A stretch of DNA of 64,000 nt from an uncultured Opitutaceae bacterium (lineage in GTDB: Bacteria > Verrucomicrobiota > Verrucomicrobiia > Opitutales > Opitutaceae): the NCBI GenBank assembly GCA_937902925.1, contig CALFNN010000084.1, forward strand, positions 1 through 64,000. The letters are read 5' to 3'. Both the position numbers and the translations under genes were made by a program. Below, in pieces: positions 12,372 through 45,215 of the stretch (the first letter of the stretch is position 1; each line of letters starts with the position of its first letter). The notes under the pieces were generated by a model. It saw only the letters and a program-made list of their open reading frames with translations, had not been told where the DNA came from and made no database searches.

Positions 12372-12486
12372 ACGGGGCCATGCACGTCTGTCCGGTCGAT
12401 GGCGACGGGCCGGTCCCGGTCTCCCGGCGTCTTGCCCGCCCCGCCCGCCCGACGGCGCCGGGTGGAGCGCTGCGTTTTCGAGTCGC

Positions 12487-17599: not shown

Positions 17600-19509
17600 A
17601 TCAGGATCGAGTATCCCGCTTCGCCGTCAGGCCGGCGCGGCCGGAGGCAATGACAGAGCCGCGCGAAGCGCAGCCATTCGTAGCGCTTCCAGGCGGCGGT
17701 CCATTTGCCCTCCGGGACGTCGCGAAGCAGCGCGGCCCTTCGCGCCGGCGCATTTTGAAACGCGAGCATCGTCGGCTCCAGCGCGCGCAACGTCTGGAAT
17801 TCCTTTTCCAGCGCCAGCGTCCAGTCGCCCCGCACCGGGCTGTAGACCTGCTGGAGCATCGTGGCGCTGATCGCGTAGACGCCCGCGGTGAGCGGCTGCC
17901 ATTTCTTCGGCGGACCGACGTCCGGCAGTGAGGGCAGCGCCGTCGCGACGATGCCTTCGTAAACCGGATCGCCGGCCCCGAAATACGACAGGAAGACCTT
18001 TTCCCCGCGGGCATTCGCGTCGAGCCAGGTCTTTAGCGCGGGCAAATCCTGCCCCCAGTCGAGCGAGCTGTCGACCAGGTGCCGCCAGCCGTTCGCCGGG
18101 CCGCCCACGATCTGGTTGAAATACGCCAGATAGTCCGGTCGCGCCCGCAGCGATTCGCCGGCATGCCAGAGGGCGAGACCGGCCACGACCGCGCTTGCGA
18201 CCGGGCGACGCCGGTCCAGCCATTGCCCGAACCAGCCGGCGGCGATGAACAGCACGGGGTAAGTGGGAAGAATATGGCGGTGACCGATGTTCAGGTGGCT
18301 CGCGAGCGACGTCCCCCAATAAACGACGAACAGTGCCGCGAGCGGGGTGAATGGTCGCAGCCGGATATTCAAGGCCGCGATCCGGCCCGTGTTGATTCCA
18401 GTCCACACCATGCGCGCGGCACTGGCGGCACCGGCCACCACGAGAATCAGGAGAGGGAGCGTGGTTTTGACGAGAAACGTGAACGGGAAGAAACTGACCC
18501 AGCCGGTCAGGCTGTAGTCGCCGTTGAAGAAAGCGCCCCGCTCCTTCGCGAACTGCACGACGAACGCGAAGCCATAGAGGAAGGCCTCGGGCAGCAGGTG
18601 CCAGTCGCGCGCGATCACAAGGATCGGGCGTGACCAGCCGAAATCCGTGAGGATCCAATCCCAATCGCCACGGTAAAAGCGGGCGCCGCCGGCGAGTTCG
18701 GATGAGAACGCGCCGTAACGAAAGCCGTAGAAAAGCCAGATCGTCGCCCACGCGACCACGAGGTGAATCGCCGTCGAGCGCGCCAGACGTGCGAGCGACG
18801 GACGCCAGCCGGCGACGCGCGCGCGCCCGACCAACCAGACGAGTGCCGAAAGGGCGAACATCGGCGCCAGCAGCACCGCGGAAAATTTCGCGACGCAGGC
18901 GAGCCCGAGGACGAAGGCGCTCAGGGCGGCCCCGCCCGCCCCGGGCCGTTCGAGGTGGCGCCACCACGCGCCGACCGCGGCGAGAAAAAAGAACGCCATC
19001 ACCACGTCCGACGTCGCGAGTGCGCCGTGGGCCAGAAACGCCGGGCAAAAGACGAACAAGGTCAGGGAAAAAAAAGCGCCCCGCCACCCGAAGAGCGCCC
19101 GCGACCAGCAGAAGACCAGCAGTCCCGTGGCGGCGCTCACCAGCGCGATCATGCCGCGGCCGAGGAAGAGCCATTCATCGGCCGCGAGTCCACGTTCGAA
19201 GAAAAACGCGTGGCCGTAGTTCCAGACGTCGGCGGCGGGCCAGCTCGGCAGCGTCGCGGGCGGCAGCGAGACACCGGCGAGAGTCATGGGCACCGCCGCC
19301 AGCCGCTGGGGCAGGTTGCCGTTCTCCGGCTGCAGGCGATAGTCGGCACGCGAATTGTAGGCCAGGCCCGCGGTCAGGTGGGCGATCTCGTCCGCCGTCA
19401 TGCTTTTCGTTGCCGCCGCGGTGAGCGCGAGCACCGCATGCAGGAGCGCCAGCAACACACCCAGCGTGACAAGAAAGGCGGCGGAAGGCGGGGAAAGGCG
19501 GCGGGCCAC
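17494..19509 (-). CDS. GT-C (GT39-like) membrane glycosyltransferase
   Basis: This roughly 671-residue polytopic protein has the PMT-like outer-loop motif MTADEIAHLTAGLAYN followed by LQPENGNLPQRL, then ALATSD, LNIGHRHILPTYPVLFI and a soluble C-terminal domain with LVDSSLDWGQDLPALKTWL. The gene products at 19562 and 25375 share every one of these. In GT39 enzymes the Asp-Glu pair is catalytic, using polyprenyl-phosphate mannose or a similar donor. GTG 19509 is preferred because AAGG lies 8-9 nt upstream; an in-frame TTG at 19545 would add 12 residues that match a conserved non-coding element instead. Confidence 0.78.
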   Translation of the reverse strand: MARRLSPPSAAFLVTLGVLLALLHAVLALTAAATKSMTADEIAHLTAGLAYNSRADYRLQPENGNLPQRLAAVPMTLAGVSLPPATLPSWPAADVWNYGHAFFFERGLAADEWLFLGRGMIALVSAATGLLVFCWSRALFGWRGAFFSLTLFVFCPAFLAHGALATSDVVMAFFFLAAVGAWWRHLERPGAGGAALSAFVLGLACVAKFSAVLLAPMFALSALVWLVGRARVAGWRPSLARLARSTAIHLVVAWATIWLFYGFRYGAFSSELAGGARFYRGDWDWILTDFGWSRPILVIARDWHLLPEAFLYGFAFVVQFAKERGAFFNGDYSLTGWVSFFPFTFLVKTTLPLLILVVAGAASAARMVWTGINTGRIAALNIRLRPFTPLAALFVVYWGTSLASHLNIGHRHILPTYPVLFIAAGWFGQWLDRRRPVASAVVAGLALWHAGESLRARPDYLAYFNQIVGGPANGWRHLVDSSLDWGQDLPALKTWLDANARGEKVFLSYFGAGDPVYEGIVATALPSLPDVGPPKKWQPLTAGVYAISATMLQQVYSPVRGDWTLALEKEFQTLRALEPTMLAFQNAPARRAALLRDVPEGKWTAAWKRYEWLRFARLCHCLRPRRPDGEAGYSILIYRLGAEDIATATGGSLADWSALIERTIAARDAGM

Positions 19510-28120: not shown

Positions 28121-30373
28121 TTACTGCTGCAACCGGGCGAGCCCGAGCACGGCGCCGGCGCTGTCGCGCACCGTGATGACCGCGCCATGGACGGGCCGCG
28201 GTTGGCCGTCGCGGTTGAAATAAATCGTCACGACCGCCGGACCAGCGAGCTTAAAGGGCCAAGCGCGCGGCTCGGTCGGGCTCCGGGGTTCGCCCTCCGC
28301 GCTGGCCGGGGTGATTTCGACGCGGGAGTCCGCGGCATCGAGCACCAGCGGCGCGTCGGACGCACCGCCGACGGCGGCGATTTCGACGCGCGCGGCCGGC
28401 CGGCCGGCCGGCAGCACAAGCGTGACGCGGACCGCGGCATTTTCAATGCGGGTGGAATCCGGCGCGCGCGAAGGCGCGAGGGCCACCGCCTCAGCCAGCA
28501 TCAGCGGCGCGATGTGGCGGCCGCGGCGCACACAAAACTCGAAATCGTCGAGCGTGAAGGCCGGAGTGAAGTTCTTCGTCACGTAGTCGTCGAGCGGGCC
28601 GCTGGGCGCGAAGCCGCGGTCCCTGAGGAAATTGAGATGCCCGCGCTGGACGATCACGCACACGCGCGGGTGCGCCTCAAGCGCGCGGATGATCGCCTGT
28701 TGCTCGGCATCATCGAGCAGCGAGAACCAGTGGGTGACGTTGGCGAGCGTCGGCGTGGGGAGGCCGGTCCAAAGGTTGAGGCTGAACATGCCGGGCAGGG
28801 AGAAAAGCATGTCGCTGTGCGCGACGGCGTTGAGCGTGAGAACCTGATAGAGTGCCGTGGTGCGATCCGGCAGCCGCAGATGCTCCGCGCCGGGCAGGCC
28901 GAAGTCGGAGCTTTCCTCGTAGCGGCGCCCGATCTGCGCGAGCTGCCAGCCGGTCGCGACCGCGAAACCGGCGATGGCCAGTTGGAGCGCGAGACCGAGC
29001 GCGCGAAGGCGCGGACCGGGCACGGCAAAGCGCGCCACCAGCCAGGAAGCCGCCGACCAGCCACCGAGGGCCGCGACCGGGATCGCCAAAAATGTTCCCC
29101 AGGCGACCTGGCTGCCCGGAACGGGAAACGCGTGCAGGCACTGGCCGAGAAACAACAGGCCGACCCAGCGTCGCCCGGCGATCGCGGCCGCCGGCTCGCC
29201 CGCGAGCGGCCACATGAACAGCCAGAGCCAGGGCATGGCGAACGCGAACACCAGGCTGTCGGGGCTGATCGCGGGAAACCGTGCAACGGCGACGACGACC
29301 GCCAGGGTGGCCGCGACTCGAAGAAGCGCGATGGCCGGATCGACGGCCGCGACTCCGCGGCGGCGCAGTTCCGAGGCCGCGACGAACAGGCCCGCCGCGA
29401 CGATCGCGGCGGTGCACGTCCCGGGAGGCCAGACGAACGTCAGGTTGAAGTGCACCGGATGGCGGAACGGCCGGAGCAGCACGCCGTCCAGCAGATCGAG
29501 CGGGGTGGTGCCCCGCGCAAACACGACCCCGATGACGACAAGGGCGACGGCCAGCGCCGCCAGCACGCCCGCCCACGCCGTGCGCCAGCCGGCGCGGGTC
29601 GTGGCGTCCAGCATCGCCGCCCCGACCGTGGTGAGCCCGGCGCCCGCAAACATCACGGCGAAGGTGAGCGCCCACGGCGTGCCGAGCAACGGACGCATCA
29701 GGGCGAACGGAAACAGGATCACGCCGACGGCGAGGATCGCCGGCGCCCGGCGGCGCACGACCGGACTGTCGTGGTGCAGGAGCAGCCACGCGATCGCCGA
29801 GAGGGCGGCGAATGCACCGACATTGATCTTGGTGAGCGCGAGCGCGACCGCGCCGCCGCCGGCGAGCAGCGCCCACTTGCGGGTTTGGCCCGTGTCGATC
29901 CACCGATGGCCGAGCCACGCCAGGACTGCGGTCAGCACCGCGATCAGCCCGCCCGGATGACTCGGCTCGCTGACCATGACCCAGAGGTAGACAAAGACGC
30001 TGGCCAGCACGGCCAGGCGGACGGCGAGGCTCCGGGTGGCGTGGCCGGCCAGCGCGGCGGACGCGATGGCCGCCCCGCTCCATGCGCCGATCGTCAGAAG
30101 ACGCCCGGCCGTGTGGGTGAGCGGCAGGCCGAGCAGGTGCAGCGCATAGTAGAGGACGTAGGGGAACGGCCCGTATTGGGAGAAGACCTCGCCGTAGAGG
30201 TGGCCATGCTCGGCAAAGTTGCGCAACGAGATCAGCACATAGCCCTCGTCGTCGTAGAACATGAACGTGCTGAACATCATCATCGCCGCCGCGACGGCGA
30301 GGGCGGCGGCGGCGACACTGAAGACCAGCGTGGCGGGCCAGGCGGGTTGGACCGGGGGGCGGGACTCAGTCAC
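28121..30373 (-). CDS. Large polytopic membrane protein, GT-C-like
   Basis: The roughly 750-residue protein has about twelve to fourteen hydrophobic helices and a soluble C-terminal 200 residues with a beta-rich end. An outer-loop motif MFYDDEGYVLISLRNFAEHG holds Asp-Asp-Glu at the position GT-C enzymes use for catalysis, and QYGPFPYVLYYALHLLGLP is reminiscent of the DUF2029/GT39 group. GTG 30373 overlaps the upstream GT2 stop by 8 nt; an earlier TTG at 30397 is less likely. Coupling to the GtrB-like GT2 gene is suggestive, since GtrB-type enzymes make the polyprenyl-phosphate sugar that GT-C enzymes consume. Confidence 0.68.
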   Translation of the reverse strand: MTESRPPVQPAWPATLVFSVAAAALAVAAAMMMFSTFMFYDDEGYVLISLRNFAEHGHLYGEVFSQYGPFPYVLYYALHLLGLPLTHTAGRLLTIGAWSGAAIASAALAGHATRSLAVRLAVLASVFVYLWVMVSEPSHPGGLIAVLTAVLAWLGHRWIDTGQTRKWALLAGGGAVALALTKINVGAFAALSAIAWLLLHHDSPVVRRRAPAILAVGVILFPFALMRPLLGTPWALTFAVMFAGAGLTTVGAAMLDATTRAGWRTAWAGVLAALAVALVVIGVVFARGTTPLDLLDGVLLRPFRHPVHFNLTFVWPPGTCTAAIVAAGLFVAASELRRRGVAAVDPAIALLRVAATLAVVVAVARFPAISPDSLVFAFAMPWLWLFMWPLAGEPAAAIAGRRWVGLLFLGQCLHAFPVPGSQVAWGTFLAIPVAALGGWSAASWLVARFAVPGPRLRALGLALQLAIAGFAVATGWQLAQIGRRYEESSDFGLPGAEHLRLPDRTTALYQVLTLNAVAHSDMLFSLPGMFSLNLWTGLPTPTLANVTHWFSLLDDAEQQAIIRALEAHPRVCVIVQRGHLNFLRDRGFAPSGPLDDYVTKNFTPAFTLDDFEFCVRRGRHIAPLMLAEAVALAPSRAPDSTRIENAAVRVTLVLPAGRPAARVEIAAVGGASDAPLVLDAADSRVEITPASAEGEPRSPTEPRAWPFKLAGPAVVTIYFNRDGQPRPVHGAVITVRDSAGAVLGLARLQQ

Positions 30374-31370
30374 GCGCAGGATTTTTTTCGGCCCCAACCC
30401 CGCGGGTGCCGGGCGATTTCACGATGTAGTTCGGGCGGCGTTTCACCTCGTCGTAGACGCGGCCGAGATACTCGCCGAGCACGCCGATCCCGATGAGCTG
30501 CACGCCGCCGAGAAACAGCACGACCGTGACGAGGGTCGTGTAACCGGTGGGCGCGGTTTCGATGTCCAGGAGACGGCGCACGGCGTAAAACGCCGCGGCG
30601 GCGAAGCCCATGAACGCGATGAAGATTCCCGCGTAGGTGAGCGCGCGCAGCGGCAGGTGCGAGAAACTGAACAGCCCGTCGAGGGCGTAGCGGACCAGCC
30701 GGCGGAACGTCTGCTGCGTTTCGCCAGCGGCGCGCTCCTGGCGGTCGTAGAGGACGTCCGCGGTCGGAAACCCGATCCAGGCGCGCAGGCCGGGAAAAAA
30801 GCGATGGCGCTCGGGGAGCTGGCTGAACGCCGCGATGGCGGCGCCGCCGAGCAGGCCAAAGGTGCCGCTGTCGGGCTCGACCGGGTAGTCGGTCAGCCGG
30901 CCATAGAGCAGGTGAAACAGATCGAAACCCGCCCGCCGCAATCCACGCTCGGCGCGCGAGCGGCGTTTCGCCCGGACGACCTCGGCGCCGCCGCGCCACG
31001 CGGCCACGAGTTGCGGGATGACTTCCGGCGGATCCTGCAGGTCGGCGTCCATCGTCACGATGGCGTCGCTGCCGCGGGCCTGGGCGAGGCCGGCGGCGAG
31101 GGCGGCTTGGAAACCGAAATTGCGCGACAGCTCGACGAGCTGGAACCGGGGATCCTTTGCCGCCCCGGCCCGGATGAACGCCGCGGAGCCATCGCGGCTG
31201 CCGTCGTCGACCAGCACGGCGCTCCACCGGCAGTCCGGCTGCGTGTCGAACAGGGCGGTGAGCCGCCGGCAAAGCTCGGGCAAGACGGCTTCCTCGTTGA
31301 ACACGGGGATGACGACGGTGACGGCGGGCAGGGACACGAGACGGGAGAAAAGCCGCGTTCCGAAAGGCAC
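30366..31370 (-). CDS. GtrB/DPM1-type family 2 glycosyltransferase (polyprenyl-phosphate sugar synthase)
   Basis: The 334-residue product has a GT2 domain (VTVVIPVFNEEAVLPELCRR; SAVLVDDGSRDGS; DAIVTMDADLQDPPEVI with the DAD/QDPPE motif). Two C-terminal membrane helices (about 235-255 and 270-295) and a VLGEYLGRVYDEVKRRPNYIV tail follow. This is the GtrB/YfdH/ArnC architecture: transfer of a sugar from a nucleotide to undecaprenyl phosphate on the cytoplasmic face. The start is a GTG at 31370. The downstream GT-C-like protein (28121-30373) is its natural partner. Confidence 0.9.
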   Translation of the reverse strand: MPFGTRLFSRLVSLPAVTVVIPVFNEEAVLPELCRRLTALFDTQPDCRWSAVLVDDGSRDGSAAFIRAGAAKDPRFQLVELSRNFGFQAALAAGLAQARGSDAIVTMDADLQDPPEVIPQLVAAWRGGAEVVRAKRRSRAERGLRRAGFDLFHLLYGRLTDYPVEPDSGTFGLLGGAAIAAFSQLPERHRFFPGLRAWIGFPTADVLYDRQERAAGETQQTFRRLVRYALDGLFSFSHLPLRALTYAGIFIAFMGFAAAAFYAVRRLLDIETAPTGYTTLVTVVLFLGGVQLIGIGVLGEYLGRVYDEVKRRPNYIVKSPGTRGVGAEKNPARD

Positions 31371-31382
31371 GCAACGCCGATT

Positions 31383-36418: not shown

Positions 36419-37108
36419 TCACCGCAGCAGGTTGTATTTCACGATCGCGTAGAGCGCACGAAAGCCGTCGCGCCAGCCGATCTTTTTGCCCTCGTCGTAG
36501 GTGCGGCCGGAGTAGGTGATGCCGACCTCGTAGATCGGGACGCGGAGTTTCGCGACCTTGGCCGTGATCTCGGGCTCGAAGCCGAAACGATTTTCCTCCA
36601 GGGTGATTTTCTGGAGCACCTCGCGCCGGCACATCTTGTAGCATGTTTCCATGTCGGTGAGGTTGAGGTTCGTGGCCATGTTGGAAAAAAGCGTGAGGAA
36701 CTTGTTGCCGACCATGTGCCAGAAATACACCACGCGATGCGCGCCGCCGCCGGAAAAGCGCGAACCGAAAACGCAATCGGCGCGGCCGTCGAGGATCGGC
36801 TGCAGCAGCTTCGGATATTCGTTGGGATCGTATTCGAGATCGGCGTCCTGCACGACGACCACGTCGCCCGTGGCGGCGGCGAAGCCGGTGCGCAGGGCGG
36901 CGCCCTTGCCCTGGTTGACCTCGTGATAAATGATCCGGTCGACCAGCGGCGCGATCTGGGTGCGCAGCAGGTCGCGCGTGCCGTCGCGGGAGCAATCGTC
37001 GACGATGATGATCTCCTTGTCCCTGACGGGTGCGGCCCGCACGCGGTCGACGATGGTGCGGATGGTCTTGGCCTCGTTGTAGCAGGGGATGACGATGGAG
37101 AGCTTCAT
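36419..37108 (-). CDS. DPM1-like family 2 glycosyltransferase (soluble)
   Basis: The 229-residue product shows the complete GT2 pattern: [68 protein letters not shown] (DAD metal motif), and GSRFSGGG. No membrane helices follow, as in bacterial DPM1-type enzymes that make polyprenyl-phosphate mannose or glucose. Numerous GT-C proteins in the locus would need such donors. It ends the minus-strand operon that starts near 45215. Confidence 0.9.
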
Positions 37109-37217
37109 GCGGACGAGGAAAGAAAGCTAGGGCGGGCCACCGGCGGGGAAAGCCTATTCCTCGCGGCACCGCGGCGGTTCCGGCGCGAATCCGGCCGCAT
37201 CGCTGCCGCGGATGTTT

Positions 37218-38243
37218 TCAAAGGCGCGGCACCGCCGCGCTGGCGGGAGCGGGATCCGCCGCCTGGCGGCGGATCGCCCCGGATTCGCCGCCGCCCTGAT
37301 AGATTCCCTCGACCACGTAGATCGGGCGCGACTTCACGGATTCATACATCCGGCCGACATATTCCCCGATCACCCCCAGCGCGAGCAGTTGGACGCCGCC
37401 GAAAAATATGATCGTCAGCATGGTCGCCGGAAACCCCGGGATGAAGTAGTCCGGATGGCTCAGCTTGACGACAAAGACGGTGAGGGCGGCGAGCAGCGCG
37501 ACGGAAATAATCAGGAGCGCGAGATAGGTCACCAGGCGCAGCGGCACGACGGAAAACGAGGTGATCGCGTCGAGGGCGAAGGAGACCATTTTTTTCAACG
37601 GATATTTGGTCTCACCCGAGAAGCGCGGATTGCGGTCGTAGAGCACCGCCACCTGGTTGCCCCCGGCCCAGCTCACCATGCCGCGAATGAAACGATGGCG
37701 TTCGCGCATCTGCCGCAGGACTTCGACGATGCGCCGGTCCATCAAGCGGAAATCGCCGGTGTCGGCGGGGATGTCGTTGTGCGTCATGCGCCGGAGCAGG
37801 CGGTAAAAAATTCCGGCGGAGATGAGCTTCAACGGCGATTCCCCCCGGCGGGTGCGGCGCCGGCCGTAGGCGACGTCGGCACCGGCCTCCCAGCGCGCGG
37901 CCATGTCGGCGATCACCTCGGGCGGATCCTGCAGGTCCGCGTCGATCAGGACGACGACGTCCCCCGTCGCGGCGTCGAGGCCGGCGGTCGCGGCCGCCTG
38001 GTGGCCGAAGTTGCGCAGGAGATTGATGACGCGGATCGCCGGATCGGCGGACGCGAGCCCGAGCGCGACCGGCAGCGTGGCGTCGCGGCTGCCGTCGTTC
38101 ACGAGCACGATCTCGTAGGCGCAACGGAGGCTTTCGCACACCGCCTTCACCCGGCGCACGAAATCGGTCACGCTCCCCTCCTCGTTGTAGCAGGGGGCGA
38201 CCACGGACAGTCGGGCGGTGGCGAGCGAGCGGGGGTCAGGCAT
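37218..38243 (-). CDS. GtrB-type family 2 glycosyltransferase (polyprenyl-phosphate sugar synthase)
   Basis: In 341 residues it has LSVVAPCYNEEGSVTDFVRR, EIVLVNDGSRDAT, DVVVLIDADLQDPPEVI and DTGDFRLMDRRIVEVL, then two C-terminal membrane helices with GVIGEYVGRMYESVKSRPIYVV. This is the GtrB/YkcC layout, expected to load a sugar onto undecaprenyl phosphate. It is homologous to the gene at 30366. Its start overlaps the upstream methyltransferase stop by 8 nt. A Pro/Ala-rich tail is unconserved. Confidence 0.9.
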   Translation of the reverse strand: MPDPRSLATARLSVVAPCYNEEGSVTDFVRRVKAVCESLRCAYEIVLVNDGSRDATLPVALGLASADPAIRVINLLRNFGHQAAATAGLDAATGDVVVLIDADLQDPPEVIADMAARWEAGADVAYGRRRTRRGESPLKLISAGIFYRLLRRMTHNDIPADTGDFRLMDRRIVEVLRQMRERHRFIRGMVSWAGGNQVAVLYDRNPRFSGETKYPLKKMVSFALDAITSFSVVPLRLVTYLALLIISVALLAALTVFVVKLSHPDYFIPGFPATMLTIIFFGGVQLLALGVIGEYVGRMYESVKSRPIYVVEGIYQGGGESGAIRRQAADPAPASAAVPRL

Positions 38244-39483
38244 GGGGTGGCGGGGCGGGGCGCCGCGGGGAGCGGCCGACGATGACGACGTTCCAGCAGA
38301 GCGGTCGCAGGAAGGGAAGCACCTTCAGGAGGACGCGGTCGAGGCGCTCCAGCGGGCGGTAGAGCCACGCCCAGTCGGCCGCCTCGTCCACGACCGTTTT
38401 CCAGAACCGCTCGCGATTGGGATTGCGCCGTTGCACCGCGACCATGCAGACGAACACGAGCAGGGTGGTAAGCCAGAACCAGCGGACCTCGACCTGTGCG
38501 AAACGCGAGGTGACCGCCCGCACGTCGCCCAGCCGGAGCGGATGTTCGTCGGGGGTGCGGACCTTCGTGGCGATTTTTCGATAGATGTTGATCAGCGCGT
38601 TATAGGCCACGGGATCCCAGCTGACAAACGTGCCGTCGGCACGCAGGTGCGGCAGGAGCCGGTCCATCATCGCCACGAGGTCGGCGTGGTGCAGGGTGTT
38701 GCCGGTGTAGATCACGTCGAACTGCCGCGAGCCCAGTCGCAGATCCTCGGCGGCGGAGACGTGCGTCTCGAGCCTCGCCCCGTTCGCCTCCGCGAGGCGG
38801 CGGGTGGCGTCGCACATGCCGGGCGAGACGTCCGTCGCCGTGACGCGGGCCCCTTCGAGCGCGAAGTAGACGCTCGCTTCGCCGAGGCCGCAGCCGATGT
38901 CGAGCAGCTCCTTGCCGCGCAAATCGCCGAGCGCCGCGCGGAGGTGGCGCATCTCGGGGGCGGTGCAGGCCTCGTTGCGCCGGCGCACGTCGATCTTCGC
39001 CACGTCCTCGCCGGCGGCCCACTCGTCGTGGAAACTTTCCTCCGTCGACAGGCGCTTTTTCGCGGCGGCGGCCGGACCGCCCGGTTCCGGCGCGAACGCG
39101 CCGGCGAGCGTGGCGTCGTCGAAAAGTCGCGCGGCGGCGAGCGTGGCGCGCAGCGCCGCGTCGAAGAACAACCGGTTGGCGGTCATCACGCCGTCCCCGT
39201 CGAACTCGCCGGCGCGGTCGCGGGGAAGGGCGGCGGGAGTCTTGAGGTCGCCGCGGGTGTAAAACCTCGCGGGCCGGTATTCGAGCACGTGCGTGCCGGG
39301 GGCGGGCAGGGACCAGGTCAGCTGCAGTTTTCCGGGACCGGCGTTCTCGAGGTGGAGGGCCCCGAGCCACCCCGCCAGCTGCGTGGCGGACTGCGGGGTC
39401 GTCGTGCGCCAGCGGGCCTGCAGCCGGCTGCCGGCCGACAGGAACTGGTGCACCGCGCTCTCGAAGAGGATTTTCTTGGGCAT
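38236..39483 (-). CDS. SAM-dependent methyltransferase with long N-terminal extension and C-terminal hydrophobic segment
   Basis: The 415-residue protein has a methyltransferase domain beginning around residue 145, with motif I ELLDIGCGLGEASVYF (DIGCG at 195-199), ARVTATDVSPGM, and VIYTGNTLHHADLVAMMDRL. The first 145 residues are of unknown type: partly beta-rich, ending in an Ala/Pro linker. Near residue 340 a hydrophobic segment (FWLTTLLVFVCMVAV) could anchor it in the membrane. It starts 2 nt after the radical SAM gene stop and overlaps the next GT2 gene by 8 nt, so these are tightly coupled. The substrate is unknown. Confidence 0.78.
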   Translation of the reverse strand: MPKKILFESAVHQFLSAGSRLQARWRTTTPQSATQLAGWLGALHLENAGPGKLQLTWSLPAPGTHVLEYRPARFYTRGDLKTPAALPRDRAGEFDGDGVMTANRLFFDAALRATLAAARLFDDATLAGAFAPEPGGPAAAAKKRLSTEESFHDEWAAGEDVAKIDVRRRNEACTAPEMRHLRAALGDLRGKELLDIGCGLGEASVYFALEGARVTATDVSPGMCDATRRLAEANGARLETHVSAAEDLRLGSRQFDVIYTGNTLHHADLVAMMDRLLPHLRADGTFVSWDPVAYNALINIYRKIATKVRTPDEHPLRLGDVRAVTSRFAQVEVRWFWLTTLLVFVCMVAVQRRNPNRERFWKTVVDEAADWAWLYRPLERLDRVLLKVLPFLRPLCWNVVIVGRSPRRPAPPPHA

Positions 39484-39485
39484 GG

Positions 39486-40712
39486 CTACGCGAGTTCCCG
39501 CGTCGCGCCGCCGGAACTCTCCGCGAGCGCCAGCCGCCGCTGGTGGCCGGGCAGCTGCACGCGGTCGCGCGGCTCCGTGCGGATGCGCGCGGCGGCCGCG
39601 AGCAGCGCCTCGTAGCTGAGGGGCCAGGGTTTGGCCGGGGGCGAGGTCAGGAAAAGCTTGATCCGCTCCATTTTCGCCCGGAGATACCGCATCGAAATCG
39701 TCATCTCCGGGTAGCTGCCATACATGCAGCCGGAGCACGCGCTCGCGATCGCCCGCACCTCGCGGCGAAACGCCTTCGCCCAATAAATTTCCGGAAACTT
39801 CGGGTCGAGGCAGGAGATCGACCGGACGGTGCGGTGGTCGCAGCAGGGCGCGAAGTCGCCGTTGGGCAGCACGGCGAAATAAAGATTGGGGCTGTCGCAG
39901 ACGCCGTGATTGCGGTCCCGCCAGGTTGTCGGCTTTTCCGCGGCGAAACGGGCGATGTCGTCGAGGTATTGGTCGGAATCGTAGAGGAGAAAGCCGGCGC
40001 GCCGCAGGGCGCGCACGCGTTCGAGCAGGGCGTTGACCTGCGGCAGCTCGTCGGGCTTCCAGCGCTTGGTCTGGTCAAAGGTCCGGAAGTTCATCGGCTT
40101 GTCGAACGTCGTGACATGGATCGGGACGAGCGAGGTCACCCAGCCCGCCTCGGTGCCGAAACGAATCACGTCCTCGACGTCGCCCAGGTTGTCGCGCTGC
40201 AGGACGCAGCCGAGGGCGGCGAAGCTGCCGGCCGGCGGCAGGTGGTGCATGAACGACGCCATGGCGCGCAGGGCGTCGTGCCACGAACGCGCAAAGCCGC
40301 CGTTGATGTCGTCCTGGTTTCCCGGCCACAGCGAGTCGAGCGAGATGGAGATGTCCCGGCCGCCGGCCTCCACGGCGGCGTGGATGCGCTCGTCGCTGGC
40401 CAGGCCGTTCGTCTGCATGCGCACGTGGATGCCGCGCGCCGTGAAGGCGCGGATGATTTCCGGCAGGTCCTGGCGGACGAACGGCTCGCCGCCCGTCAGC
40501 AGGATCATCGCGACCCCGAGGCGCTGGAAATTGTCCGCCATCCGCTGGATCTCGTCGAGCGTGCACTCGCGGACATCGGAGTTCGCGTAGATGATGTTGC
40601 ATTGCTTGCACGTCAGGTTGCAGCGCGCCGTGATGTAATACTGCACGTAAACCGGCGCGTTCTGGAACAGCGCGGCCCGCGCCAGCGTTAGTTTCGACGA
40701 GCGGGGAAACAT
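39486..40712 (-). CDS. Radical SAM/SPASM-type enzyme of unknown substrate
   Basis: The radical SAM cluster motif is CNLTCKQC (Cys31, Cys35, Cys38), followed by LLTGGEPF at 71-78 and MQTNGLAS. The C-terminal part has further cysteines: CDSP near 272, PCCDH near 290 and CSGC near 326. They are spaced like a SPASM or twitch domain binding an auxiliary Fe-S cluster. No precursor-peptide ORF is seen nearby, and the neighbours are methyltransferases, an SDR and GT2 genes. A sugar or lipid-linked-glycan radical modification (epimerisation, dehydrogenation or methylation) is the contextual inference. The 408-residue length is normal. Start ATG 40712. Confidence 0.85.
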   Translation of the reverse strand: MFPRSSKLTLARAALFQNAPVYVQYYITARCNLTCKQCNIIYANSDVRECTLDEIQRMADNFQRLGVAMILLTGGEPFVRQDLPEIIRAFTARGIHVRMQTNGLASDERIHAAVEAGGRDISISLDSLWPGNQDDINGGFARSWHDALRAMASFMHHLPPAGSFAALGCVLQRDNLGDVEDVIRFGTEAGWVTSLVPIHVTTFDKPMNFRTFDQTKRWKPDELPQVNALLERVRALRRAGFLLYDSDQYLDDIARFAAEKPTTWRDRNHGVCDSPNLYFAVLPNGDFAPCCDHRTVRSISCLDPKFPEIYWAKAFRREVRAIASACSGCMYGSYPEMTISMRYLRAKMERIKLFLTSPPAKPWPLSYEALLAAAARIRTEPRDRVQLPGHQRRLALAESSGGATRELA

Positions 40713-40800
40713 GGCTACGCCGCCCGGGTCGACCCCGGCGCACCGCCATCCATCGTGCCGGGCAACGGCTGGAAATTCGCCGCGGGAAAAGACATGCGGG

Positions 40801-41691
40801 CTAGCCTCGCTTTTCGAAACCGCAAGTCAACACGCCCTGCCGCTCCGGAAAGAACGCGTCGGCCAGCCCGAGGACGAGCGCGGCGGGCACGGCGGCCAGC
40901 AGCAGGAGGCCGGCGGCGAGATCGAGCATCCGGGAACGGGACGGCGCGCCGCGCTTGAGCCGGTAATACGCGTAGTTGTGCCCGGGCATCGCGATGTTGA
41001 GCAGGCCCTGGGCATAGCCAAAAAAATTGTAGGGCCACGAGACGACGGTGCGGGTGCGGGTGAAACCATGTGCAGCCAGCAGCCGGCCGAGCGAGTCGGG
41101 CGTGAACTGATGCGGATGATTGGCCACGTCGAAAAAAGCGTAGTGTTCGCGGAAGAGCCGGTATTGGAACGAGGCGCCGTTCGGCACGGAGACCACCAGG
41201 CGGGCGCCGGCGGGCATTTTGGCGCCGAGCGCGGCGAGGAAGGCGGTGAGGGCGGGTGCGGGAAAATGTTCGAGGCTGTGCCACGCGGTGGCGGCGTCGA
41301 TTTCGCCATCGATGGCCGCGAGGTCGGTCACGATCTCGACGCCGAGCGTCTCGCGGGCAAACGCGATCGCGGCGGGCGTGATCTCCAGGCCGCAGGATCG
41401 CTCGAATCTGCGGCGCTGGTGAAACAGGAAGGCGCCGGAGCCCGAACCGATGTCCACGAGCACGCGGCGCGAACGCCCGGCGAGGAGGCGGTCGAGCGCG
41501 GCGCCCTGGAAGCGCTGGAGGGACGAACCCCGTTTTACGGCGGCGGCATCCAGCGGCTCGTTGATCATGAGCGTTTGCGCGGCCGGGGCGGCGAGCGTTT
41601 CGTGGCCGCAGGCGACGCACCGCCGGTAGGGCGCAGTCACGTGGTCGAAGGTCGTGCCGTGGCAGAGGAAGCAGGCGGGCGGGGTCGCCAT
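40801..41691 (-). CDS. Zinc-ribbon class I methyltransferase
   Basis: The 296-residue product starts with two CxxC knuckles (Cys7, Cys10, Cys25, Cys28) that would bind zinc. A SAM domain follows: VDIGSGSGAFLFHQ (80-93), GLEITPAAIAFA, and AWHSLEHFPAPALTAFLAAL. The Zn-ribbon plus methyltransferase order resembles sugar C-methyltransferases and the Methyltransf_13/11/14 arrangement. A hydrophobic helix near the C terminus (LDLAAGLLLLAAVPAALVLGL) suggests membrane attachment. It is 88 bp upstream (minus sense) of the radical SAM gene and 4 bp downstream of the double-SDR gene. Confidence 0.82.
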   Translation of the reverse strand: MATPPACFLCHGTTFDHVTAPYRRCVACGHETLAAPAAQTLMINEPLDAAAVKRGSSLQRFQGAALDRLLAGRSRRVLVDIGSGSGAFLFHQRRRFERSCGLEITPAAIAFARETLGVEIVTDLAAIDGEIDAATAWHSLEHFPAPALTAFLAALGAKMPAGARLVVSVPNGASFQYRLFREHYAFFDVANHPHQFTPDSLGRLLAAHGFTRTRTVVSWPYNFFGYAQGLLNIAMPGHNYAYYRLKRGAPSRSRMLDLAAGLLLLAAVPAALVLGLADAFFPERQGVLTCGFEKRG

Positions 41692-41695
41692 GGGT

Positions 41696-43402
41696 TCAGC
41701 GCAGTCTTTCCATCAATTTTTTCCAGAGGGCCACCGAGGTCGCACGCGGCAGGAGGCGGGCGACGAGCGCCATGCCGGCCGCGCGGGTGGAAATGATCAC
41801 GGTCGTGCGGGGGCGCGCCAGCGCGCGAACGATCCGCTCCGCGACCCGGGCCGGCGCCATCAAGCGTTCGGATGCCAGTGTCTTCACCCCGGCGGCGCGC
41901 TGAAAATTTGTCTGCATGCCGCCCGGGCAGGCCACGAGAAAGCGCACGCCGGTGCCCGCCAACTCCGCGGCCCACGCCTCGCCGAGGGAGAGCAACGCGG
42001 CATTCGAGGCGGCATAGGTGGCAAGATAGGGGAGCGGCTGGAAGGCCGAGGACGAACTGATGAACACAATCCGGCCGAATCCGGCGCGGGTCATGGCCGG
42101 GATCGCGGCGTGCGCGAGAGTGAGGCGGGCGAGGACGTTGACGTTGAACAGCCGGGCATGCGCCGCGGCGCCGGCGGTCAGCACCGGTCCGCGGATACCG
42201 AAGCCGGCACACGCGAAGAGTTCGGTGACGGGATGCGCGCGCCATTCGACGCCGGCGACAAGCCGGGCCACGCCGGAATCGTCCGCGAGGTCCGTGACCG
42301 CAACGCGGCAGTGCGGGTGGCGGGACTTGACGCGGTCCAGGCCGGCGGCGTCACGATCGACGAGCAGGAGGTTCCGCCGGCAAGGCGCGAGTCGCCCGAC
42401 CAGGGCCTCGCCGAGACCCGACGCGGCGCCGGTGATCACGGTTTGCCCGCCGGGATCGAAATCCGCGTCGAGGCGTGCGCGTTCGCGAACAATGACCGCT
42501 TGCAGCGCCTCCGGCGCGGACCGCCGCGGTTGCCAGCCGAGTTGGCGCAGGGCGGCGTCGGAGGCCGTGAGCGCCGGCAGGAGCAGGGCCTTCAGCCGGA
42601 ATGGAACCATCCGGGGAAAAGCGCGCGCGGCCCGGGCGGCCCATGCCACCGGCAGCCGCCGCCCGCCGGGGCGTGCGAGTTCAAAACAATCGCGAAGGGC
42701 GAGCGGCGAGCCTGCGCAAAAAAAGGTTCGGCCGGCGGCGTCGGGATGGGTGGCACAGAGCTCGAGGGCCGCCGCGAGATCGTCGACATCCACCACACTG
42801 AAGCTGCCCGGCCAGGCGAAGCGCGCGAGCGGCGCGCTTTTCAGCGCCGTCCGCACAAACACCGCGAAATGGCTGTCAAGGCGCATGTCGCGTCCGACGA
42901 CCATGGCGGGGCGGACGACACTGTAGGGCAGCCCGGACGCCCGCACGAGCTGTTCAGCCCGCCGCTTGGAGCGCCCGTAATCGGAGGTGGGGTGAAGCGG
43001 CGACTCCTCGTTCAAGGAAGCGGCGCAAGGGTCGTCGGGAGCGCGATCGACCGCGCCGATCGTGGACACAAAGACAAAGCGGCGAAGTCCGGCGCCGCCC
43101 TGCTGCACGGCCTCGATCAGGCGGCGCGTGCCGTCGACGTTGACGGCCTCGTGCCCGGGCCCATTGCCGAACGAGGCGTTGGCTGCACAATGGACGACGA
43201 AGTCCACGCCCGCCAGGCCGGCCTGCCACGCCGTGGGATCGGCCAGGTCCCCGCGAATAATTTCCACGCCGAGTTCCGCGAGGTCAGGACAGTCGCGACG
43301 GACCAGGCCGCGAACCCGGTGCCCGGCGCCACGCAACCGCCGGCACAAGTGCCGGCCGACGAAACCCGCGGCACCCGTCACGAAATAGCACGACGCGTTC
43401 AT
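41696..43402 (-). CDS. Double SDR fusion: extended-SDR epimerase/dehydratase + classical SDR with altered catalytic Lys
   Basis: This is a 568-residue fusion. The N-terminal half is an extended SDR: GAAGFVGRH (10-18), VHCAAN, FVSTIGAVD, and the Y142-x3-K146 catalytic pair in DYGRSK, as in sugar-nucleotide epimerases or dehydratases. The C-terminal half, from about residue 322, is a classical SDR: TGAASGLGEA, LFACAGFGI, FISSSSAFQ with the catalytic Ser. In its Tyr-x3-Lys site the sequence is Y463-AAS-N467, so Asn replaces the catalytic Lys (codon AAT at 42002-42004). The second domain may therefore be weak, inactive or differently specialised. It lies between a membrane protein (43419) and the Zn-ribbon methyltransferase, with 4-16 nt gaps. 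Confidence 0.85.
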   Translation of the reverse strand: MNASCYFVTGAAGFVGRHLCRRLRGAGHRVRGLVRRDCPDLAELGVEIIRGDLADPTAWQAGLAGVDFVVHCAANASFGNGPGHEAVNVDGTRRLIEAVQQGGAGLRRFVFVSTIGAVDRAPDDPCAASLNEESPLHPTSDYGRSKRRAEQLVRASGLPYSVVRPAMVVGRDMRLDSHFAVFVRTALKSAPLARFAWPGSFSVVDVDDLAAALELCATHPDAAGRTFFCAGSPLALRDCFELARPGGRRLPVAWAARAARAFPRMVPFRLKALLLPALTASDAALRQLGWQPRRSAPEALQAVIVRERARLDADFDPGGQTVITGAASGLGEALVGRLAPCRRNLLLVDRDAAGLDRVKSRHPHCRVAVTDLADDSGVARLVAGVEWRAHPVTELFACAGFGIRGPVLTAGAAAHARLFNVNVLARLTLAHAAIPAMTRAGFGRIVFISSSSAFQPLPYLATYAASNAALLSLGEAWAAELAGTGVRFLVACPGGMQTNFQRAAGVKTLASERLMAPARVAERIVRALARPRTTVIISTRAAGMALVARLLPRATSVALWKKLMERLR

Positions 43403-43418
43403 GATCGAGGCGGCGGGA

Positions 43419-45215
43419 TCAAGGCGCCCGGCATTGCCACAGCGACCAGCCGCCGACCTGGTCGATTCGCGTGGCGCCGGGCAAGTCCGGGTGCCACGCG
43501 TCGCACGACAGGATGTAGCCGGCGTGATATTTTGCCGCGAGCGCGACCAGGCGGGCGGGCGGCAGCTCGCGCCACAGTTTTTCCAGGTCGATTCCCGGCA
43601 CGAGGCGGGTGCCCACCACGTCCTCCAGCCGGGCGCGCCACTCGAGCATGCCGCGGTCGGTGAACGGCATGTCCTTCGTCTGGATCACGACGGCCCGCTT
43701 GGCGAAGAGGCGGAAGCTCCAGCAGTCGCCTTCCGGCGGCACGAGCACCAGCGCGTCCTTGGGCGAGGCGGCGCCGAAGCGGGCGCCGAGCACGCCCGGC
43801 GCATCGACCGGACCGGCCTCGACGGCGAAACGCGGCGCGAGCTGCGCCCGTGCACTGGCGGGCAGGACGAACCACGCGACGACAGTGAGCGCCGCTGTGG
43901 CGCTGGCGAAGAGGAGCCCGCGCAGCGTCGGCGGCCGGCCCTGGCGGTCGACGAGAAACGCGGCGCCAAAAATCAGCAACCATGCGAAATAATGCAGGGC
44001 CAGCCGCGTCGTGAACATGCCGATGTAGCCATAGACGAGGATCAACAGCACGGCGAACAAACCCCAGCGCCAGAGGTGGCGCGGGGCGTCGGCCGGCGGC
44101 AGGGCGACGCCGAAGGCGATCAGGAAAAGTCCGGGGAACGGGGTCAGCGGCGCGAGCGCGAGGAGGATGGCGGCGCCGTAATCGCGGCGCGCGATCCGCT
44201 GCTGCGCGATCAGCGCGAGCGCGAGGAGGGCGGCGAACTCGGCGAACGGCGTCAGGCGCGCGGGCTGCAGCTTGGCGGCGATGATCCACGGCCACACCTC
44301 GACGAAAACGTAGTTGGCCGCCAGGCCCGCGGCGGCGGCGGCCAGAACGAGGAGAAAAATGCGGCGTTCGCCGGCGGAACGGACGGCCCGCAGTTCCCGG
44401 ACGCACAACAACGCGCCCATATAGAAAAGAAAGAACTGCACCCAGGCCGGCCAGCCCCACGTCGACGGCATGAGATGATTGGGGCACCGGAGCTTGGCGT
44501 AGATCTCGACGAAGGTGTCGTTATCCAGCAATGGCGTGCCCATCGAGCCGAGGACGACGAGCGGGGCATAGTTGATCAGCAGGCTGAAAACCCACACGCC
44601 CAGCGCAAGGCCGACGAGCCGGAGCCGGCGCCACGGCAGGGCGGGAAGCAGGAGCGCGCCGGCATAGAAGCCCACGAGGAACTGCAGCACGCTCGCGGCG
44701 CCGAAGCACGCGTAGGCGGCGACCCAATGGCCCCGCCGCGCCAGGGCGAAGCCCCAGAGCACCGCACCCATCACCCAGACGGCGGGCAGCGGGGCGTGCG
44801 TGTAGAGAAACACGCCACCGACGGTGCCGGCGGAGACGTTCAGGAACCACAGCAGCAGCAGCGCGATCGCCGCGCTGCCGAGCGCGAAGCTCCGGCCGAG
44901 CGCAAACATTCCCGTGACGAGCACGGCCAGCGCGCCGGCATGGAGCAGCACCGCGGCGGCGGGCAGCGACAGCCCGAGTTTCGTGACGCCGACGATGCTG
45001 TAGAAATAATACGACCGCGGGGTGAAACGCAGCCACTCGTGCACCGCGTAGTCGCGGGTGAAGAGCCGGGGGTCGACCATGGCCTGCAGGACCGCCTCCT
45101 CGACCGAGCAAAGCACCGGCCAGAGGTAACCGCGCAACACCAGCACGACGGCCACCAGCCAGCCGACCAGCATGAGATTCGCCGCCACCCTGACCGGCTT
45201 TGTGGGGAAACTCAT
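43419..45215 (-). CDS. Polytopic membrane protein of unknown family (glycan operon)
   Basis: The 598-residue product has about twelve hydrophobic helices. The first outer loop includes VDPRLFTRDYAVHEWLRFTP, with an Asp-Arg/Glu-Trp motif, and the C-terminal 150 residues are soluble and end in GGWSLWQC. The overall plan (loop with acidic residues, many helices, periplasmic tail) resembles GT-C enzymes, but I do not recognise a specific family. ATG 45215 is chosen because GGGGA lies 5 nt upstream; the ATG at 45227 and the start at 45254 are also in frame. It is the first gene of the minus-strand operon running to 36419. Confidence 0.65.
   Translation of the reverse strand: MSFPTKPVRVAANLMLVGWLVAVVLVLRGYLWPVLCSVEEAVLQAMVDPRLFTRDYAVHEWLRFTPRSYYFYSIVGVTKLGLSLPAAAVLLHAGALAVLVTGMFALGRSFALGSAAIALLLLWFLNVSAGTVGGVFLYTHAPLPAVWVMGAVLWGFALARRGHWVAAYACFGAASVLQFLVGFYAGALLLPALPWRRLRLVGLALGVWVFSLLINYAPLVVLGSMGTPLLDNDTFVEIYAKLRCPNHLMPSTWGWPAWVQFFLFYMGALLCVRELRAVRSAGERRIFLLVLAAAAAGLAANYVFVEVWPWIIAAKLQPARLTPFAEFAALLALALIAQQRIARRDYGAAILLALAPLTPFPGLFLIAFGVALPPADAPRHLWRWGLFAVLLILVYGYIGMFTTRLALHYFAWLLIFGAAFLVDRQGRPPTLRGLLFASATAALTVVAWFVLPASARAQLAPRFAVEAGPVDAPGVLGARFGAASPKDALVLVPPEGDCWSFRLFAKRAVVIQTKDMPFTDRGMLEWRARLEDVVGTRLVPGIDLEKLWRELPPARLVALAAKYHAGYILSCDAWHPDLPGATRIDQVGGWSLWQCRAP

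Follow-up and report, generated by a model that had tools for sequence, protein, structure and literature searches.

An operon of glycan-type genes in an uncultured Opitutaceae bacterium carries, among its methyltransferase and SDR genes, a gene for a radical SAM protein (rSAM). What does this enzyme modify: a sugar on a lipid carrier, a soluble sugar, a lipid or a peptide? The operon lies in a 64,000-nucleotide stretch of contig CALFNN010000084.1 (the window). Seven open reading frames are predicted between positions 36419 and 45215, all on the minus strand. Successive genes are separated by 16, 4, 88 and 2 nt, then overlap by 8 nt, then are separated by 109 nt. The genes, with one protein domain discussed below, are as follows.

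43419-45215, minus strand: polytopic membrane protein, 598 aa (PF20604, hydrophobic stretches)
41696-43402, minus strand: double SDR, dSDR (Pfam and NCBIfam, motifs by eye)
40801-41691, minus strand: zinc-ribbon class I methyltransferase, ZnMT (PF13489, E=2e-16; CxxC...CxxC)
39486-40712, minus strand: Twitch-like radical SAM protein by predicted cluster ligands, rSAM, 408 aa (PF04055, E=2e-20)
38236-39483, minus strand: N-extended methyltransferase, MText, 415 aa (PF13649, E=3e-16)
39121-39483, minus strand: N-terminal domain of MText, about 120 aa (tracks near-type rSAM)
37218-38243, minus strand: GtrB-like polyprenyl-phosphate glycosyltransferase (PF00535)
36419-37108, minus strand: DPM1-like GT2, 229 aa (PF00535, E=1e-37)

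These coordinates bear out the gene order, gaps and overlap given in an earlier, sequence-only reading of the same DNA. Its gene families were likewise recovered with Pfam and NCBIfam, apart from the label SPASM given to rSAM. That reading had also counted GT2 in the operon. This protein shows no membrane-like stretch on a hydrophobicity scale and, among the loci compared, has a close relative (86%) at L018 only. GT2 is therefore peripheral and lies outside the conserved set. At the other end, the membrane protein has 13 hydrophobic stretches on a simple scale, and its only Pfam match is DUF6798, near the C-terminus. It gave no significant BLASTP match with the membrane protein of the L026 cassette, and the two proteins are not alignable. 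Large membrane proteins lie beside several cassettes, and those tested gave no glycosyltransferase Pfam match. We consider the membrane protein as a candidate glycosyltransferase. Further glycan genes are found elsewhere in the window.

In an alignment of 24 rSAM sequences (A4, which leaves out close loci L012 and L015), all 24 match PF04055. The CxxxCxxC motif (C31-C35-C38) is invariant in all of them, as are C272, C290, C326 and C329 (C272-x17-C290 ... C326-x2-C329). The same seven cysteines are also invariant in the 20 sequences from close loci, and C291 is nearly invariant among the 24. The Pfam SPASM model matched the window protein below its cut-off (E=0.035), and 16 of the 24 sequences gave weak matches (E<=1). 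The CX5CX3C part of the seven-cysteine SPASM motif for two auxiliary clusters is absent from the aligned sequences. Judged from its conserved cysteines, which fit the shorter Twitch domain, rSAM is a Twitch-like protein with predicted ligands for one auxiliary cluster, not a SPASM protein. The four extra cysteines would fit a fully ligated Twitch cluster of the BtrN type. According to PMC9012708 and PMC6231123, BtrN is a Twitch rSAM dehydrogenase that oxidises a sugar-like alcohol and, as predicted for the window protein, has four auxiliary cysteines. However, the BtrN substrate is a soluble cyclitol, and BtrN ranked only 45th in a structural search with the rSAM model (Z 14.9, 223 residues), behind BlsE, SkfB, SuiB, viperin, PqqE and MoaA.

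The best match to the predicted rSAM structure (pLDDT 87.7) was BlsE (7vob; Z 26.0, rmsd 3.2, 306 residues, 17% identity), followed by two peptide maturases, SkfB and SuiB, at ranks 2 and 3. Similarity is a poor predictor of function in this rSAM group, as stated in PMC6231123, and absence of a family from the structural match lists does not count against it. By sequence, rSAM matched 48 NCBIfam models, and the 25 listed are all far below their cut-offs; its PDB matches cover mainly the radical SAM core. At the limits used, no relative was found in viral contigs, plasmids or phages, and carriage by phages or plasmids was rejected. Assignment of the homologues to a known non-sugar substrate, which the earlier reading had named as evidence against it, was not encountered in these searches. 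The best pVip match is confined to residues 23-138 of 408 (model positions 2-112 of 257, 54 bits). As the whole model is not matched, a prokaryotic viperin was ruled out. A defence function was also set aside, the pVip and mad2 matches being limited to the rSAM core and the methyltransferase cores. The second match in the own genome (36%) is MoaA-like, with MoaC- and MoeA-like ORFs next to it (judged by eye), and not a paralogue of the rSAM family.

The conservation of the locus was then considered. Counting the window, rSAM-MText adjacency with a nearby GtrB was found in 19 of 20 close loci; in the remaining one, the contig ends at rSAM. The other close loci, with 64-78% rSAM identity to the window, belong to Verrucomicrobiota, Proteobacteria, Bacteroidota and Elusimicrobia, and the GC content of the set ranges from 0.41 to 0.71. 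These 20 loci share descent and are not independent observations. The 19 found outside the window are all MAG records, and binning may have given individual ones a wrong taxon label. Because only places matching two exact peptide patterns are visible to the scan, which gave 67 stretches and 20 relatives, the locus count is a lower bound. At 36-40% rSAM identity, two of three loci (L038 and L040) keep GtrB, a methyltransferase, dSDR and ZnMT within about 6 kb. The other refuting outcome named in the sequence-only reading, an operon order conserved nowhere, was not borne out: the core of rSAM, MText and GtrB is linked across phyla. L030 (29% identity) was counted nowhere, and six distant loci were counted apart. 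In five of these (L041, L042, L051, L053, L054), three or more B12-type rSAM genes surround the locus and GtrB has no match; L052 shows no B12-rSAM match and weak GtrB matches (39 bits). Therefore, the wider rSAM family is not tied to GtrB.

The distribution is sparse. At the set limits, matches occurred in 4 of 189 relatives (own genome included) and in 7 of 387 genomes of the phylum, namely the own genome, G426 (close) and five distant ones. Further genome sets, centre genomes included, gave matches in 2/301, 5/198 (four distant), 1/300 and 1/296 genomes, the sole match in the last two sets being the centre genome itself. Within the aligned core of the close loci, minimum pairwise identity is 65% for rSAM, 44% for MText and 43% for GtrB. 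That rSAM is the most conserved member suggests that one specific reaction is kept across otherwise variable glycan loci.

The window GtrB would be, by family, a polyprenyl-phosphate glycosyltransferase. It has three hydrophobic stretches and scores 256 bits with the PgfS model, below the cut-off of 500. GtrB lies downstream in 11 and upstream in 8 of 19 close loci. The cassette copy was the best match to it in all 17 genomes searched. In a tree, one branch (support 86/85) separates 22 cassette copies from 13 paralogues found in these genomes, a grouping recovered in 88% of bootstrap trees. The paralogues had been selected for their resemblance to the window GtrB; 3 of 16, for which no locus was obtained, were left out, and the cassette copies include five taken from other loci. 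GtrA is present in 6 of the 20 close loci (PF04138 confirmed for L025) and was not seen within the flanks examined in the other 14. A profile built from these six proteins found no GtrA in 83 kb of the window contig. Because no GtrA is seen near the window, we say that the cassette works like a Gtr-type periplasmic glycosylation set, not that it is one. A GalE gene, a candidate for supplying the sugar donor, is the immediate upstream neighbour of GtrB in L024; in L025, GalE is found about 2.4 kb away on the upstream side. Overall, the steady GtrB partner, GtrA, GalE and BlsE as top structural match point to a sugar substrate, though only indirectly.

The genes might also simply lie side by side within a glycan island and share no pathway. 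The other glycan genes of the window and the lack of conservation of GT2 and of the window membrane protein would agree with this. Nevertheless, adjacency preserved across several phyla and such a range of GC content (19 of 20 loci), the cassette-specific GtrB group and the confinement of dSDR to the rSAM locus (17 genomes) make us disfavour this explanation, which we regard as very improbable.

MText has a class I SAM-binding core and hydrophobic C-terminal segments. Its start lies -17 to +125 nt from the rSAM stop in the 19 assessable close loci, and in 17 of them the junction (-17 to +6 nt) is too tight for a precursor peptide gene. Distances of rSAM and MText correlate across close loci (r=0.94, with no species-tree control). 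The N-terminal domain gave no credible Pfam or PDB match, the structural search with the MText model covering residues 141-408. All 15 genomes with near-type rSAM that were searched contain it, against none of 9 with distant types (alignment A6, used in the N-domain analyses, omits L012 and L016). In L043, it forms its own ORF directly after rSAM, with an ATGA overlap. This tracking and the separate ORF, together with the ranks of SkfB and SuiB, would be explained if rSAM were a peptide or protein maturase with the domain as its substrate or carrier. However, the first 70 residues are predicted to be well folded (pLDDT 76-94 in blocks of ten), though residues 77-96, a stretch that includes the invariant R77-G78-D79, are below 50. 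Moreover, L038 and L040 are without the domain, yet keep GtrB, the methyltransferase, dSDR and ZnMT. A maturase is therefore an improbable explanation.

The remaining two genes accompany the cassette in part of the loci only. dSDR consists of an extended SDR with YxxxK followed by a classical SDR in which YxxxN replaces YxxxK (by eye; also in relatives). All nine dSDR matches in 17 genomes sit at the rSAM locus. Eleven of the 20 close loci showed no dSDR, and seven of these (L013, L017, L021-L025) belong to genomes without any match at E<=1e-40. Since dSDR is missing from many loci, redox pairing of rSAM with an SDR cannot hold in general. Distances of rSAM and dSDR correlate with r=0.08 in close loci and 0.39 in all (no species-tree control). 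ZnMT carries an N-terminal CxxC...CxxC (by eye) and a hydrophobic C-terminal stretch, and is accompanied by dSDR in all six close loci that carry it. With no control for the species tree, its distances correlate at 0.88 with those of dSDR in close loci, and also at 0.88 with those of MText and of GtrB (10 pairs). A single dSDR-ZnMT module was dropped, as ZnMT tracks MText and GtrB equally; for this reason we only call the two genes optional.

The best PDB sequence match of ZnMT is CalS10, an O-methyltransferase of a nucleotide pentose. This speaks for the possibility that the substrate of rSAM, dSDR and the methyltransferases is soluble, either a nucleotide sugar or a sugar phosphate, and that GtrB loads the finished sugar on the lipid. 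DesII acts on a soluble substrate, as does BlsE, both being sugar-pathway enzymes among the structural matches, and rSAM has no hydrophobic stretch. On the other hand, both methyltransferases have hydrophobic C-terminal stretches, which we count for a lipid-side substrate. In addition, gene clustering gave no sugar-nucleotide gene common to most loci, with gene calls being poor at high GC (in the window, L016, L018 and L019 at least). We consider modification before loading as somewhat unlikely, while giving it real weight.

If the methyltransferases are membrane-associated, as they appear, the substrate might be a lipid in itself. The modification would then fall on the polyprenyl carrier or another membrane lipid, in the manner of tetraether synthase or of B12-rSAM enzymes that act in hopanoid pathways. 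Tetraether synthase is among both sequence and structure matches of rSAM, but the match to its Tes model (NF045702) reached 56 bits for a cut-off of 450. HpnJ-like B12-rSAM genes (below the HpnJ cut-off) adjoin the cassette in L027 and L038, and such genes fill five distant loci. Nevertheless, B12-rSAM matches occur in only one of the 20 close loci (L027) and none was found in 83 kb of the window contig. The steady GtrB also fits a sugar carrier system better. A lipid substrate is thus quite unlikely in our view.

We favour, with a probability of about 0.48, the explanation that a core trio of rSAM, MText and GtrB, with GtrA in some loci and, optionally, dSDR alone or together with ZnMT, builds an unusual polyprenyl-phosphate-linked sugar for transfer to a surface glycan at the outer side of the membrane. 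The sequence-only reading had proposed an unusual modification of a lipid-linked or nucleotide sugar. With 'SPASM' corrected to 'Twitch-like', this idea is partly supported in view of the core conserved across phyla and of searches that returned no homologue with a known non-sugar substrate. We infer each chemical step, the action of GtrB ahead of rSAM, the flipping and what the membrane protein does as follows. The cassette-specific GtrB would load polyprenyl phosphate with a hexose taken from a nucleotide sugar. rSAM would then take a hydrogen from the lipid-linked sugar, and the carbon radical would give an electron to the auxiliary cluster, leading to a keto, epimerised or decarboxylated sugar; a net oxidation is favoured. 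Membrane-associated MText could methylate this product, with its N-terminal domain docking the substrate or rSAM. Where present, dSDR may reduce or epimerise the keto sugar and ZnMT may add a second methyl. Finally, the sugar lipid would be flipped, and a locus-specific membrane glycosyltransferase would join the sugar to the glycan.

To our knowledge, radical SAM sugar chemistry is found mainly in antibiotic pathways with soluble substrates. A search of the open-access literature by title and abstract opening found no paper on such a cassette. Its occurrence in unrelated phyla points to an undescribed chemical alteration of sugars bound for the cell surface. If the lipid-linked reading is true, radical chemistry produces a sugar in the surface glycans of diverse environmental bacteria, and the producers can be recognised by their cassette. 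The tight rSAM-MText-GtrB set is a small, testable expression system. Tentatively, rSAM could be the first radical SAM enzyme to act on a sugar linked to polyprenyl phosphate. It would be the radical equivalent of DprE1, with an undescribed partner domain in the MText N-terminus. The cassette would then be a transferable add-on through which ordinary Gtr-type glycosylation comes to attach a sugar that has been methylated and altered by radical chemistry.

Among the closest known systems is a three-component periplasmic glycosylation system (Kelly et al. 2024, PMC11127046), for which undecaprenyl-P-ribofuranose has been proposed as the substrate of an SDR epimerase. It comprises a polyprenyl-P sugar synthase, a flippase and a membrane transferase, with a further oxidoreductase in the cytoplasm that, as proposed there, would change the sugar on its lipid, similarly to our proposal. 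The authors state that no other epimerases are known to them in O-polysaccharide side-chain systems. Charging relies there on a PRPP-using enzyme and modification on an SDR, whereas in the cassette the charging enzyme would be GtrB, a GT2, and modification would fall to rSAM and methyltransferases; flippase and membrane transferase are described there, whereas no GtrA or recognisable GT-C was seen in the window. The same source describes DprE1/DprE2 of mycobacteria as oxidising and reducing a sugar already on polyprenyl phosphate, as proposed here. DprE1/DprE2 involves neither a radical SAM enzyme nor a methyltransferase, whereas the cassette has both, and dSDR is optional. DprE2 is an SDR.

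BlsE, the top structural match, is a cytosylglucuronate decarboxylase, an rSAM enzyme acting on a sugar acid (PMC3715490). The cysteines proposed there for its second cluster, C317xC319xxC322, are spaced otherwise than those of the window protein. The BlsE substrate is a soluble nucleoside, as compared to the lipid-linked sugar proposed here. AprD4 and AprD3 form an rSAM enzyme and reductase pair in sugar deoxygenation. The reductase is paired in that system, whereas dSDR is optional in the cassette. The AprD4 model is absent among the 25 of 48 models listed for rSAM and matches the B12-type rSAM neighbours.

The sequence-only reading had described seven ORFs with short gaps, in the order membrane protein, double SDR protein (dSDR), zinc-ribbon methyltransferase (ZnMT), radical SAM protein (rSAM), N-extended methyltransferase (MText), GtrB and GT2. 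The ORFs of the window have this order and spacing, and all seven are on the minus strand. The features concerned are as follows.

36419-45215, minus strand: the seven-gene set
41696-43402, minus strand: dSDR, within this set
30369-31382, minus strand: a further GtrB-like gene, sharing 39% identity with the GtrB of the set
12352-15308 and 17627-19174, minus strand: three long ORFs that match no Pfam family at 1e-5

Domain searches showed two SDR domains within the single dSDR protein. ZnMT is a class I methyltransferase starting with a zinc-ribbon-like CxxC...CxxC, and MText is a second methyltransferase with an N-terminus lacking family assignment. The two GT2 proteins of the set are GtrB-like and DPM1-like, respectively, and its first gene encodes a polytopic protein that matches DUF6798. 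The window contains other glycan genes (Wzx-like flippase, DegT aminotransferase, PMT_2 protein, further GT2s and methyltransferases).

A pattern-based scan of the species-genome collection for rSAM relatives returned 20 loci; identity was 64-78% in 19 of them and 29% in the other. After exclusion of the latter, the window and the 19 others made up 20 close loci. These belong to Verrucomicrobiota, Alpha-, Gamma- and Betaproteobacteria (one Aquabacterium), a Cryomorphaceae bin and an Elusimicrobia bin. In 19 of the 20, MText starts -17 to +125 nt from the rSAM stop (-17 to +6 in 17 of these 19); in the remaining one, L012, the contig stops at rSAM. GtrB lies near rSAM in the same 19 loci; it is downstream in 11 of them and upstream in the other 8. 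We refer to rSAM, MText and GtrB as the cassette core. dSDR is found in nine close loci (window, L011, L012, L015, L018, L020, L026, L027, L028) and ZnMT in six (window, L012, L018, L020, L026, L028), all six having dSDR. L018 keeps the window order from dSDR to GT2 (86%), the membrane protein ahead being of a different kind. In the betaproteobacterial L026 and L028, the order is membrane protein, dSDR, ZnMT, (GtrA in L026), GtrB, rSAM, MText. A further close locus, L043 (70% rSAM identity), has GtrB, rSAM and the methyltransferase. Three loci have 36-40% rSAM identity. In L038 and L040, dSDR, the methyltransferase, ZnMT and GtrB all lie within about 6 kb; L039, on a 13-kb contig, keeps dSDR only.

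Partner specificity was then considered. In 17/17 cassette-bearing genomes, it is the cassette copy of GtrB that matches the window GtrB best. A 35-row GtrB tree places 22 cassette GtrBs on one side of a branch and 13 paralogues on the other (support 86/85); this split was recovered in 88% of bootstrap trees and matched by 0/500 label shuffles. The second GtrB-like gene of the window groups with a paralogue from the genome of L018. Nine of the 17 genomes have a dSDR match at E<=1e-40, in 9/9 cases at the rSAM locus, and eight have none. A ZnMT search of 10 genomes at E<=1e-15 gave five matches, four at the cassette and a weak one elsewhere (72 bits, genome G527).

Pairwise distance correlations of cassette proteins, computed without species-tree control (close loci; with L038, L040, L043)
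rSAM-MText: 0.94; 0.84
rSAM-GtrB: 0.84; 0.62
dSDR-ZnMT: 0.88 (15 pairs); 0.82
MText-ZnMT: 0.88 (10 pairs); 0.41
GtrB-ZnMT: 0.88 (10 pairs); 0.74
rSAM-ZnMT: 0.69; 0.75
rSAM-dSDR: 0.08, uncorrelated; 0.39

The partner data thus show rSAM and MText travelling together, with dSDR and ZnMT as optional members. Since dSDR is optional, the cassette does not as a rule pair an oxidase with a reductase.

At the Pfam threshold, rSAM matches the radical SAM core only. Its CxxxCxxC motif and C272, C290, C326 and C329 are invariant in a 24-sequence alignment including the window (29-78% identity to it), as well as across the 20 close sequences. According to passages of PMC6231123 and PMC9012708, a SPASM motif comprises seven cysteines, and its truncation to a single cluster gives the Twitch domain; in BtrN this cluster is held by four cysteines, and in MoaA it has an open site. 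Judged by its four invariant cysteines and those of BtrN, rSAM looks to be a Twitch enzyme whose cluster is fully ligated. Its AlphaFold model is of good quality, with a mean pLDDT of 87.7. BlsE tops the structural matches (Z 26.0, rmsd 3.2, 306 aligned, 17% identity), followed by SkfB (Z 23.0) and SuiB (22.5); lower in the list are PqqE (20.8), MoaA (20.5), DesII (19.0), tetraether synthase (18.2) and BtrN (14.9). Because every match is a radical SAM fold, this list leaves the reaction unsettled; NCBIfam models and PDB sequence matches gave no characterised homologue deciding the role of rSAM.

The methyltransferase core of MText is preceded by about 120 residues, with 12 positions invariant in 19 rows (M1, K3, E8, S9, W57, A72, R77, G78, D79, D97, N103, F107). 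Nothing credible matched this domain in the PDB (top match E=1.8) or in Pfam (six families, one row each, E 0.013 to 0.37). Its model is confident for residues 1-70 but not for 77-96. The domain occurs in 15 of 24 searched genomes, as a single copy and always with a near-type rSAM; it is absent from the 9/9 searched genomes with distant rSAM types. In L043 it is an ORF of its own, and its ATGA overlap with the methyltransferase start speaks against, without excluding, an assembly error as the cause of the split.

In the second SDR of dSDR, the motif is YxxxN in the six ZnMT-linked close proteins (window by eye). It is YxxxK in L011, L015 and L027, and also in L038, L039 and L040 (by eye), though L038 and L040 carry ZnMT. 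With the catalytic lysine replaced by Asn, the C-terminal SDR half of the window protein may be inactive or altered.

Gene linkage and the protein features above are observations; the substrate, the order of steps and the reaction are inferred. The constant GtrB partner, together with GtrA in six close loci (L021-L026; the L025 copy confirmed by Pfam PF04138), points to a polyprenyl-phosphate sugar. Against this reading, no GtrA was seen within the flanks examined of the 14 other close loci, nor in the 83 kb searched of the window contig. L024 has a GalE gene immediately upstream of GtrB (431 bits to TIGR01179), and L025 has one at a distance of about 2.4 kb upstream (448 bits); both fit a UDP-hexose donor at those loci. 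In a simple hydropathy scan, both MText and ZnMT have hydrophobic C-terminal stretches, which speaks for a membrane-bound substrate, and the four-cysteine Twitch cluster, by analogy with BtrN, favours a net oxidation by rSAM.

Further evidence against this reading leaves room for a lipid as the rSAM substrate. Distant relatives at L041 (6666-13809), L042 (1388-8528), L051, L053 and L054 stand amid at least three B12-type radical SAM genes, distinct from rSAM, and have no GtrB match; in L027 and L038, B12-type genes are found beside the cassette itself. Further ORFs in L053 and L054 are, by eye, U32-peptidase-like, PP-loop-like, DegT-like and membrane-protein.

The nearest concept is the three-component glycosylation system described in passages of Kelly et al. 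(PMC11127046), with an SDR epimerase that they propose to act on undecaprenyl-P-ribofuranose and alter it. Our best reading of the cassette follows that logic: a lipid-linked sugar would be altered, here by radical chemistry and methylation. In operation the cassette would resemble a Gtr-type system with tailoring at the lipid stage. The window is not classed as a member, since no GtrA turned up in the 83 kb searched of its contig and its membrane protein is a candidate transferase. Full-text searches of the open-access literature aimed at such a gene set found no publication on it.

Two other arrangements were observed. Upstream of rSAM in L011, L014, L015, L017 and L019, a membrane protein of about 950 residues (c2) is matched three or four times in tandem; its first 639 residues in L014 are without a Pfam match at E 0.01. 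In L039, positions 1251-3686 form one 811-residue ORF in which a metallo-beta-lactamase-like N-terminus (by eye) is joined to dSDR, the dSDR alignment beginning at about residue 50; this is either a fusion or a chimeric contig.
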